Shown here piece by piece: positions 28,843 through 37,100 of a stretch of 62,572 nucleotides of DNA. Position 1 is the stretch's first letter. Each line of letters begins with the position of its first letter. The translations under genes were made by a program, and so were the position numbers. The notes beneath the pieces are model-generated. The model had not been told where the DNA came from. It was given only the letters and a program-made list of their open reading frames with translations, and did no database searches. Origin of the DNA: Planctomycetota bacterium (GTDB taxonomy: Bacteria > Planctomycetota > Planctomycetia > Planctomycetales > Planctomycetaceae). Location of the stretch: the NCBI GenBank assembly GCA_016872645.1, contig VGZH01000025.1:1-62572 (forward strand), in the 5' to 3' direction.

Positions 28843-30438
28843 TCAGTCGTGTTGCGCGAGTACGCGCTTCGTCGGCTGTTTGTCGGACATCGCTCGGTTC
28901 AGGGCTTTGAGGTACGCTTCGGCGCTGGCTTGAATGATGTCGGTGCTGATCCCTTTGCCGTGGTACGCCTTGTCGTTGACGAGAATCTCGACGAACGCTT
29001 CCCCCTGAGCGTCCTCTCCACCGCTGACGCTGCGGACTTGGAAGTTTCGCAGCGTTCCCGACACGCCGGTGATCCGCTTCATCGCCAGAAAGATCGCATC
29101 GAGCGGTCCGTCTCCAGTCGCGGCGTCTCGCTTGGAAGTCGGCTCGCCTTCGCATTGCAGTTCGACGGTTGCCGTTGGGATCGTGCCGGCACCGGCGAAG
29201 GTCTGCACGCTGACCAGCTTCCAGCGATCACTTGCGTCGTTTGTGTCGCCGAGATGGCTTTCGATCAACGCAATGATGTCCGCGTCGTACACGTCCTTCT
29301 TCTTGTCGCACAGCGTGATAAATTCCTGAAAGACACGCTCGAAGACATCGTTCTCCAGTGTGAAGCCCAGCGAGTTCACACGATCACGGAAAGCGTGCCG
29401 TCCGCTGTGTTTGCCCAAGACCAAATTCGAGCCAACGTAGCCGACGTCATCCGGCCGCATGATCTCGTAGGTCGCTCGATTCTGGAGCATCCCGTGCTGA
29501 TGAATCCCGGCCTCGTGGGCGAATGCGTTCTGACCGACGATCGCTTTGTTGCGTTGCACGGTCATGCCCGTGATGCGGCTGACCAAACGGCTGATCGGAA
29601 ACAGTTTTGGCGTGTTGATGTTGGTCCGCACGCCATAGAAGTCTCCGCGAGTTTTAATCGCCATCACGATCTCTTCGAGTGCCGCATTACCGGCTCGTTC
29701 GCCCAGGCCGTTGATCGTGCATTCGACTTGCCTTGCTCCTGCTTCGACGCCCGCCAAACTGTTCGCAACCGCCAGGCCAAGATCGTTGTGGCAATGCGTG
29801 CTGATGACCGCCTTGTTGATGTTCGTCACGTTGGCCTTGAGGTACTCGATGCACTTTTTGAAGTGCGCCGGCGTCGCGTAGCCGACGGTGTCCGGGATGT
29901 TGACCGTGGTGGCCCCGGCGTCGATCGCCTTCTCGACCACTTGGCACAGGAAGTCGAGTTCCGTGCGAGCGGCGTCCTCCGGCGAGAACTCCAAGTTCGG
30001 CGTCGTGATGTCCGACCGCGAGCACATCAGGTCGCGCGTGTACTTCACCATCTCGACCGTAGACTTCAGGATTTGGTCCTCGGCCATCTTGAGTTTGAAC
30101 TCGCGATGGATCGGACTGGTCGCCAGGAAGACATGGATGCGGCACTTCTCCGCTTCTTTGAGCGCCTCCCACGCACGGTCGATATCCTCTTTGCGGCAGC
30201 GAGCCAACCCGCAGATGACCGTGCGGTTGCCGAACTCGCGAGCGATCGTCCGCACCGCCTCGAAGTCGTCCGGTGACGCGATCGGAAAACCCGCCTCGAT
30301 GACGTCCACTCCAAGTTCGACGAGCGCCTTAGCGATTTCCAGCTTCTCCGCCGAATTCATGCTGCAGCCGGGAGACTGCTCGCCGTCGCGCAAGGTGGTG
30401 TCGAAGACTGTGATCGTGTCAGGCTGAGTGGCAGACAT
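28843..30438 (-). CDS. leuA: 2-isopropylmalate synthase
   Basis: 531-aa enzyme that condenses acetyl-CoA with 2-oxoisovalerate, the committed step of leucine synthesis. [11 protein letters not shown] near the N-terminus holds the catalytic Arg-Asp, STHCHNDLG the metal-binding His pair, and [10 protein letters not shown] and [13 protein letters not shown] complete the TIM barrel. The C-terminal 130 residues form the LeuA regulatory domain, so leucine feedback inhibition is expected. GAGGAACC precedes the ATG. The leader upstream contains a promoter, a leucine-rich leader peptide and an attenuator hairpin, giving a second, transcriptional layer of leucine control. A palindromic repeat sits between attenuator and start codon. 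Confidence 0.97.
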
Positions 30439-30453
30439 GATGGTTCCTCAAAT

Positions 30454-30512
30454 TAACCCGAAGCGTCAGCGAGGGCGTTTCCTCGCAAAGCCCTCGCTGA
30501 CGCTTCGGGTTA
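30454..30512. repeat. Palindromic element of the NPKRQRG type
   Basis: Perfect 23-bp arms (30454-30476 and 30490-30512) around a 13-nt loop; core ACCCGAAGCGTCAGCGAGGG. When translated, this family gives NPKRQRG, a string common in planctomycete annotations. It lies 16 nt upstream of the leuA start codon and downstream of the attenuator, so it would fold in the leuA leader RNA. Confidence 0.9.
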
Positions 30513-30540
30513 GTGAGCGCGAGTGAGGGGTGTAGACAAA

Positions 30541-30576
30541 ATAAAAAACCCTGAGCCTCCAGCGGAGGCTCAGGGT
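30541..30576 (-). terminator. Rho-independent terminator of the leuA attenuator
   Basis: Perfect 12-bp stem (CCCTGAGCCTCC / GGAGGCTCAGGG) with a 3-nt loop, followed on the minus strand by TTTTTTATTTT. It lies between the leader peptide stop and leuA, so it would stop transcription before leuA unless its 5' half pairs elsewhere. That alternative pairing exists: positions 30562-30570 can pair with 30611-30619 in nine base pairs. Confidence 0.9.
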
Positions 30577-30610
30577 GTATTCGCACGGTCAAAAGCGACA
30601 ACGACACCAA

Positions 30611-30632
30611 AGCCCCCGCGTCAACGCAGGAG
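30611..30632 (-). promoter_or_regulatory. leuA attenuator strands 1 and 2
   Basis: On the RNA, CUCCUGCG (30632-30625, inside the leader peptide Leu codons) can pair with CGCGGGGG (30620-30613), eight pairs including two G-U, around a UUGA loop. The second strand can instead pair with the 5' half of the terminator. This gives the 1:2, 2:3 and 3:4 arrangement of classical attenuators. Confidence 0.8.
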
Positions 30633-30668
30633 AAGGCTAAGGGCCAAAAGTCGCAAAGAAGATCGCAT
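30621..30668 (-). CDS. Leucine-rich leader peptide of leuA (leuL-type)
   Basis: A 15-codon frame, MRSSLRLLALSLLLR, with seven Leu codons (TTG, CTT, TTG, CTT, CTT, CTC, CTG). It is preceded by AGGAA five bases before the ATG. The stop codon sits inside the loop of the protector hairpin, and the terminator hairpin begins 45 nt further on. By analogy with the enterobacterial leu leader, a ribosome short of Leu-tRNA would stall here, expose strand 2 for pairing with the terminator half, and allow leuA transcription. A ribosome that finishes the peptide would let the terminator form. I did not compare it with a database. Confidence 0.85.
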   Translation of the reverse strand: MRSSLRLLALSLLLR

Positions 30669-30695
30669 GACAGTTCCTATCAGAAAGCGGGCAGC

Positions 30696-30725
30696 AATCT
30701 ATCCAGCGAGATTCGGCGAGGTCAA
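30696..30725 (-). promoter_or_regulatory. Candidate sigma-70 promoter for the leuA leader
   Basis: On the minus strand TTGACC (30725-30720) and TAGATT (30701-30696) are separated by 18 bp. They match the -35 consensus at five of six and the -10 consensus at four of six positions. Transcription would begin about 20 nt before the leader peptide ATG, a fitting geometry for an attenuated leader. Confidence 0.55.
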
Positions 30726-30789
30726 GTGGCAAGCAAGAGAAGATTCGGCCGAAGCTGTGAAACGAGAAGAAGTCACGAAATCTCCAGCC

Positions 30790-36221: not shown

Positions 36222-37100
36222 ATGCCCGAAAACATTCTCAAGCTCGGAATTCCCGCCGGCAGCCTGCAAGAGGCGACCGCCGCGCTGTTTCAGCGTGCGG
36301 GGTACAACATTAAGTTCCAGTCGCGGAGCTACTACCCGACGATCGACGATCCCGAAATCGAGTGCATGTTGATCCGCGCTCAGGAAATGGCGCGGTACGT
36401 CGAAGAGGGGGTACTCGACGCGGGCATCACCGGGTTCGACTGGATTCAAGAGACGAATGCCGACGTCACTGAAATCTGCGAGTTGATGTTTTCCAAAGTC
36501 AGCCGCAACCCGGTGCGCTGGGTGCTGTGCGTACCGAACGACTCGCCGGTGAAGACGGTCAAAGACCTGCAAGGGAAACGGATCGCGACGGAAGTGGTCA
36601 GCCTGACGACCCGCTACCTCGCCAGGCACGGAGTCACCGCGAAGGTCGAATTCAGTTGGGGCGCGACCGAAGTCAAGCCGCCGAAGTTGGCCGACGCGAT
36701 CGTCGAAGTCACCGAGACCGGCAGTTCGCTGCGAGCCAATAACCTCCGAATCGTCGAAGAACTGTTGCAGAGCACGACGCGGTTCATTGCGAACAAAACC
36801 GCTGCCGCCGATCCTTGGAAACGAACCAAGATCGACAACATCGCGCTGATGGTTCAAGGCTGCCTGAACGCCGAGGGGAAAGTCGGCTTGATGATGAACG
36901 TCCGACGGACGGACCTTCAAAAGGTGCTCGATCAACTCCCCGCGCTGCAAATGCCGACGGTCTCGTCGTTGTCCGATCCCGATTGGGTAGACGTCAACAC
37001 GATCGTCGATGAGTCGCTGGTCCGCACGATCATTCCGGCTTTGAAGACGGCCGGCGCACGAGGCATCGTCGAATACGGCATCAACAAAATCATCGACTGA
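36222..37100 (+). CDS. hisG: ATP phosphoribosyltransferase, long form
   Basis: 292-aa enzyme that starts histidine synthesis by joining ATP and PRPP. N-terminus [20 protein letters not shown], then [12 protein letters not shown]; the PRPP-binding loop lies near [15 protein letters not shown]-terminal domain of about 75 residues, from [19 protein letters not shown] to the end, is the ACT-like regulatory domain of the long form, so histidine feedback and independence from HisZ are expected. The other his genes are not in this window. The amino-acid kinase gene follows after 86 bp that contain a palindromic element. Confidence 0.96.

Follow-up and report, generated by a model that had tools for sequence, protein, structure and literature searches.

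The region upstream of leuA in the planctomycete DNA analysed here (the window, the whole stretch of 62,572 nucleotides) reads, from its sequence, as a classical leucine attenuator that is kept throughout the class Planctomycetia. A Leu-rich leader ORF, a promoter before it, an intrinsic terminator between it and leuA, and a pairing predicted to exclude that terminator are all present, and the element is in all likelihood a classical ribosome-mediated transcription attenuator.

The leuA leader in the window

The elements of the leader region and the gene downstream are the following:

30720 to 30725, minus strand: -35 box TTGACC, read from the sequence and conserved in relatives
30696 to 30701, minus strand: -10 box TAGATT, separated from the -35 box by an 18-nt spacer, read from the sequence
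30674 to 30678, minus strand: Shine-Dalgarno AGGAA of the leader ORF, read from the sequence
30621 to 30668, minus strand: leader ORF MRSSLRLLALSLLLR, 15 codons with 7 Leu (start ATG at 30668, stop TGA at 30623-30621), read from the sequence; Leu-richness kept in relatives
30625 to 30632, minus strand: strand 1 (CTCCTGCG), overlapping the last Leu codons, read from the sequence
30613 to 30620, minus strand: portion of strand 2 pairing with strand 1 (CGCGGGGG), read from the sequence
30604 to 30617, minus strand: portion of strand 2 pairing with strand 3 (GGGGGCTTTGGTGT, antiterminator), from pairing energy and arm-swap tests
30564 to 30578, minus strand: strand 3 (ACACCCTGAGCCTCC), the 5' arm of the terminator with its lead-in, from pairing energy and the arm-swap test
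30543 to 30575, minus strand: intrinsic terminator, a perfect 12-bp stem with a GCT loop and T6, read from the sequence and from stem covariation
28843 to 30438, minus strand: leuA, 2-isopropylmalate synthase, 531 aa (stop included in the coordinates), from TIGR00973

TIGR00973 identifies leuA (702.1 bits, above the 598.7 cut-off), and about 100 nt separate the terminator from its start. The first-pass annotation had named the TTGACC-18-TAGATT promoter boxes, the AGGAA box, the 15-codon leader with seven Leu codons and the perfect 12-bp terminator with a T-run, and all of them are read directly from the minus strand; the leader has no CTA among its Leu codons, and the terminator arms are CCCTGAGCCTCC (30575-30564) and GGAGGCTCAGGG (30560-30549), followed by T6. 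The 8-pair 1:2 stem described in the same annotation is likewise present around the leader stop codon (arms as listed for strands 1 and 2, loop TTGA); the strand 1 stretch folds at -14.7 (z -1.9). An alternative pairing of strand 2 with the first half of the terminator, strand 3, also exists, but the nine pairs proposed for it were too few: it comprises 13 pairs in two blocks of 8 and 5 (GGGGGCTT with GAGCCTCC, and GGTGT with ACACC), at -20.8 kcal/mol, a value matched or bettered by 1 of 100 shuffles (z -3.1). This 2:3 antiterminator, predicted to exclude the terminator, is one of the marks of a ribosome-mediated attenuator; the others found here are a Leu-codon-rich short ORF upstream of leuA, an intrinsic terminator between the two and a predicted promoter before the leader. 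On the two strands of the window together, a terminator-like hairpin lies near the end of 16 short ORFs; of these, only the leuA leader reaches 5 Leu in 12 codons (one other has 4).

We infer from this arrangement that ribosomes stall, that the two structures act as a switch, that leucine is what the switch responds to, and that transcription is coupled to translation. RNA polymerase would start just upstream of the 15-codon leader. With ample charged tRNA-Leu, the ribosome would cross the seven Leu codons and reach the TGA, where it would either cover strand 2 or have dissociated, allowing 1:2 to re-form; the terminator would then be made by strands 3 and 4 and transcription would end near 30543. 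When Leu-tRNA is scarce, the ribosome would be expected to stall at CTT CTC CTG and cover strand 1, in which case strands 2 and 3 would pair, the terminator would not form and leuA would be transcribed.

Between the terminator and leuA lies a palindrome with 23-base arms (TAACCCGAAGCGTCAGCGAGGGC, 30454-30512). The possibility that it forms a second regulatory hairpin was weighed and dismissed, since it is variant or absent in close relatives, and it therefore looks like a dispersed palindromic repeat; its core occurs once in the window within 2 mismatches.

Comparison of leuA leaders across relatives

LeuA-like matches were found in all 119 genomes searched, the window's own included (some are partial or paralogues), and 88 leuA upstream regions from the own genome and its relatives were examined, counts that take in about ten close congeners. 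Under a looser rule, a leader with a terminator was found in 75 of the 88 regions. The strict rule (a short ORF adjoining a scored terminator and carrying 5 or more Leu codons within 12) was applied to 85 regions, after removal of two that are truncated (L075, L133) and one with a run of N (L112), and was satisfied in 72 of them, from nine families: f1, the window's family (57/62), f2 (4/11), f3 (3/4), f4 (2/2), f5 (1/1), f6 (1/1), f7 (2/2), f8 (1/1) and f9 (1/1). Isosphaera pallida is one of the f2 members (the second replicon of genome G078 is 100% identical to NC_014957.1 over 3 kb). Of the 13 misses, eight contain a Leu-rich ORF but no U-tract terminator that was scored (L084, L120, L143, L145-L147, L150, L156), three have 4 Leu in 12 codons and a terminator (L117, L132, L136), and two have neither a Leu-rich ORF nor a terminator (L140, L155). 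Thirteen additional regions (nine f3, four f5) were scored with a slightly looser terminator score: six show 5 Leu in 12 codons and a terminator (L339, L343-L347); L337, L340 and L342 (GTG start) have a Leu-rich ORF, and L335 and L338 a stretch with 4 Leu in 12 codons, before a hairpin without a scored U-tract; no Leu-rich ORF was found before the hairpin in L336 and L341.

The enrichment is specific to leucine. When terminator-adjacent ORFs of the 85 regions were scanned for all 20 residues, Leu reached at least 4 in 12 codons in 75 of them, followed by Arg and Ser (9 each), with Ile at 0 of 85. In the consensus of 33 aligned leaders (CTnGGCCTnCTnCTnAGCCTn) the first and second bases of the Leu codons are held and the third is free. 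CTA, the rarest Leu codon in the leuA coding sequences, accounts for 83 of 509 Leu codons in 75 leaders against 3 of 936 in the coding sequences of 26 species; in the matched 26 species, the figures are 16/173 in leaders and 3/936 in leuA (Fisher p = 4e-11). The CTA enrichment and the free third bases indicate that the codon, not hydrophobicity, is what matters. Conservation of the Leu codons in related leuA leaders, proposed in the first-pass annotation as a check on its reading of a leucine attenuator, is thus borne out, and the comparison across relatives supports that reading.

The promoter is also conserved. A TTGAC followed 16-19 nt on by TANNNT is found upstream of 56 of the 75 leaders, against 0/73 and 0/75 in shifted and opposite-strand controls, and the -10 box lies a median of 33 nt ahead of the leader start codon; TAGATT is the commonest -10 (14/56, in a set that includes close congeners). 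Since the promoter is kept before the leaders, transcription very probably starts just upstream of them, as attenuation requires.

Covariation was analysed in an alignment of 33 of the 45 TAG-type leaders (omitted were nine from outside f1 and L098, L099 and L118). Compensatory changes, proposed as a check for all three stems, are clear in the 3:4 terminator stem: 97.6% of cells are paired, and double-sided changes occur at 5 of 9 pairs, in 20 cells, a cell count reached by 0 of 500 shuffles. The 2:3 columns are 90.2% paired, without an excess of covariation over shuffles (of 500, the observed pairing was reached by 100, the score by 148 and the number of double-change cells by 27), the helix being mostly invariant in the aligned leaders. 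The 2:3 pairing is supported instead by the match between arms: in 63 leaders (the 75 minus 12 near-duplicates), strand 2 pairs with its own terminator arm at -16.1 and with permuted arms at -13.6 (z -7.6, 0 of 100000 permutations), while a decoy stretch gave z -1.7. The own-arm match holds within f1 (z -5.9, n=47) and in the f1 TAG leaders (z -5.6, n=36), and is weaker in the 11 other f1 leaders (z -2.2, P 0.018); the remaining group of 16, labelled outside f1, contains one f1 sequence, L142. For the 1:2 stem the signal is modest (mean z across the 63 leaders -0.49 versus -0.24 in control stretches, Mann-Whitney P 0.063; P 0.012 for the arm swap, n=37). In 33 leaders (32 with TAG) the stop codon lies within strand 2, and in 15 (13 with TGA, the window included) strand 2 begins just after it; 27 of the 75 leaders fall outside both layout windows set for the analysis.

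Genus g60 of family f3 is probably Gemmata. Squalene epoxidase (PF08491), which we take to be a marker of the genus on the assumption that Gemmata makes sterols, was found in 5 of 6 g60 genomes and in 0 of 9 others tested, a soft marker because PF08491 also matches in the E. coli and Caulobacter controls. All six g60 regions carry a conserved hairpin (GGCCCCGGA..TCCGGGGCC) just before leuA, with weak U-tracts, and the ORFs upstream (for example MTVLPLLLDIRLLGPPRG) have at least 5 Leu in 12 codons in 4 of 6 and 4 Leu in the other two.

Beyond the class, the Leu leader has a scattered distribution: under the looser score, 8 of 40 regions (L167, L172, L178, L181, L202-L205) have an ORF next to a terminator with 5 or more Leu per 12 codons, and the 40 include a distant match, L206. 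The leaders of L202-L205, from another planctomycete lineage (f31), end in RGAPG in three of the four, and L205 seemingly has two leaders in tandem. At 5 of 6 leuA loci titled Gemmatimonadales or Gemmatimonadetes (L066-L069 and L071; not L065), a comparatively long, Leu-rich short ORF was also observed next to a terminator. Within the examined loci, a gene whose product resembles the four-helix bundle protein of 23S rRNA intervening sequences lies between the attenuator and leuA in L017 and L089 (one contig), the L089 terminator being more than 500 nt from leuA; the leader of L015 is likewise far upstream.

Leaders at cimA and DAHP synthase

A covariance model built solely from leuA leaders was run over 59 genomes, the own genome included, and gave a match at E up to 1 in 50 and none in 9; by a reading of coordinates, the best match is at leuA in most of the 50. 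By hand tally, the 36 matches elsewhere than leuA comprise 17 just upstream of cimA, 10 at a DAHP synthase gene and 9 at other places (seven of them inspected, the other two being G027:C846 and G085:C26). The model largely detects terminators, so its matches were taken only as a lead and the leaders were then read independently.

The citramalate synthase gene cimA of the own genome (L003; G000:C14, upstream of 40885; TIGR00977, 661.3 bits against a cut-off of 450) is preceded by the Ile-rich leader MRRPPTNPISIISAVAGIVIPASGLFRRH and a terminator. Among 48 cimA regions of the class (L003, L222-L228 and L242-L281, that is 1 + 7 + 40), 33 have a terminator-adjacent ORF in which Ile takes 4 or more of 12 codons; Arg, the next residue, does so in 10/48 and Leu in 6/48. 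The Ile codon ATT makes up 118 of 194 in these 33 leaders versus 174 of 930 in leuA coding sequences. At cimA the arm-swap signal (z -2.8, P 0.003, n=30) falls short of the one seen for leuA. Strand 2 of the cimA leaders often spans the TGA stop. Thirteen cimA regions from other classes were excluded from the 48 and screened separately; two of them (L231, L238) seemingly have an Ile-rich ORF beside a terminator.

At DAHP synthase (loci L282-L284, L286, L291, L293-L295, L302-L331), 13 of 29 regions in relatives have a terminator-adjacent ORF in which Phe, Tyr and Trp take 5 or more of 12 codons (for example WWRFYFGF and FYFWFSF), and the largest other residue class tested, Lys+Arg, reached 4/29. 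The 29 regions derive from the best 30 loci of the matches listed, one of which, L303, was omitted for having too little upstream sequence; NF006421 and TIGR01361 were above their cut-offs in the four proteins scanned, the rest being assigned by similarity. The aromatic rule was satisfied in 0 of 8 DAHP synthase loci of the window's genus.

In the own genome, loci of ilvD type (4), ilvB type (3, one below the family cut-off) and trpE type (2), and hisG (1), have no scored upstream terminator, and therefore no attenuator is claimed there; for the hisG in the window (36375-36857) none was scored within 1500 nt upstream. The own genome also encodes a leuA paralogue (L002, 47% identical), at which no attenuator was found.

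Alternative readings and relation to known systems

The hairpin might instead be an insulator or simply terminate an upstream transcript, and the Leu-rich ORF might be fortuitous or encode a small membrane or signal peptide, given that intergenic terminators are common and that Leu-rich peptides of 15-25 residues generally look like signal peptides. We consider this very unlikely, since the promoter directly precedes the leader in 56 of 75 cases and in none of the 73 and 75 controls, and a Leu-rich ORF is rare at other terminators: it was found in just 1 of the 16 terminator-near short ORFs of the window, the leuA leader, and at 2 among 29 other window terminators plus 33 named loci (named loci come largely from the genomes of the genome set and were kept out of the counts), one of these two (L015) reading as the own leuA leader of that species, located farther upstream. 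A role as a hydrophobic or signal peptide is opposed by the CTA enrichment and the free third bases, which favour the codon over hydrophobicity, and by the cimA leaders, which are rich in Ile (33/48) and seldom in Leu (6/48).

Translation of the leader could also act through Rho, mRNA decay or leuA translation, as suggested for the actinobacterial LEU element. The poor U-tracts at the hairpin in 5 of 11 f2 regions (L143, L145-L147, L150) agree with such a mechanism, as do most of the six probable Gemmata sequences, where the U-tract is poor and the hairpin close before the leuA start, but the window terminator has T6 and lies about 100 nt ahead of leuA, and a hairpin with a U-tract is present in 57 of 62 f1 regions; for these reasons we regard the mechanism as unlikely. 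The idea that a protein or a tRNA binds the element (a T-box or a riboswitch) and the Leu ORF is coincidental draws on the leu genes of Firmicutes, which are often under T-boxes. It appears extremely improbable here: Rfam gave no leader, T-box or riboswitch family at the gathering threshold in the whole window, and the 11 rows obtained at E up to 10 for 30430-30760 include none either.

Ribosome-mediated attenuation is the reading we prefer, and one of the closest known systems is the enterobacterial leu operon attenuator (leuL, Rfam Leu_leader), with which the planctomycete element shares a Leu-rich leader peptide, the 1:2, 2:3 and 3:4 strands, an intrinsic terminator, leuA downstream and rare CTA codons (here in relatives of the window genome). 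Unlike leuL, it matches no Rfam leader model, Leu_leader included, and the stop codon falls inside its strand 2 in 33 of 75 leaders, while in the window strand 2 starts just after the stop. The ilv-leu attenuator of Staphylococcus aureus (PMC5794164) similarly places a terminator after a short ORF rich in Ile and Leu, and likewise comes from neither Proteobacteria nor Actinobacteria; it differs in lying upstream of ilvD, in an antiterminator said to use the poly-U tail, and in being backed by mutants, whereas the planctomycete leader is known from sequence. The actinobacterial LEU element (PMC1262725) also has a run of Leu codons upstream of leuA, but is described as a pseudoknot whose base stem joins the Leu codons and the leuA Shine-Dalgarno, a stem not expected in the window, where the terminator and about 100 nt lie between leader and leuA. 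For the aromatic leaders a parallel is aroR, with its Phe-Tyr-Phe leader before the DAHP synthase gene aroF of Corynebacterium glutamicum (PMC11802643), in a different phylum and unlike many planctomycete leaders, which also carry Trp.

Short leader ORFs have been counted across many phyla including Planctomycetes (PMC4833913), and neither 'leucine' nor 'isopropylmalate' occurs in the main text of that paper. In agreement with the first-pass annotation, which knew of no planctomycete case, no planctomycete leucine attenuator was found in the accessible literature on leucine attenuation, leader peptides and leuA, where an earlier mention is possible; nor was a cimA attenuator found by title or abstract among the literature matches listed. 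Leader-peptide attenuation would thereby gain a phylum, and the recurrence of the arrangement at two related synthases, each with its fitting residue (Leu at leuA, Ile at cimA), would provide a built-in specificity control.

Attenuation needs a ribosome close behind RNA polymerase, so attenuators found throughout the class would be a genetic handle on coupling. Planctomycete coupling is disputed on cell-biological grounds: segregated transcription and translation are reported in Gemmata obscuriglobus (Gottshall et al. 2014, as cited in PMC6212462, PMC5287468 and PMC6554331), and PMC6554331 disputes that cell plan. If the attenuator is present in the probable Gemmata, transcription and translation would be coupled there at least at leuA. 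For the class Planctomycetia, we lean slightly towards the view that attenuation may be a general control of amino-acid synthesis (Leu at leuA, Ile at cimA, Phe/Tyr/Trp at DAHP synthase), with such coupling at leuA in probable Gemmata standing against the reported segregation.
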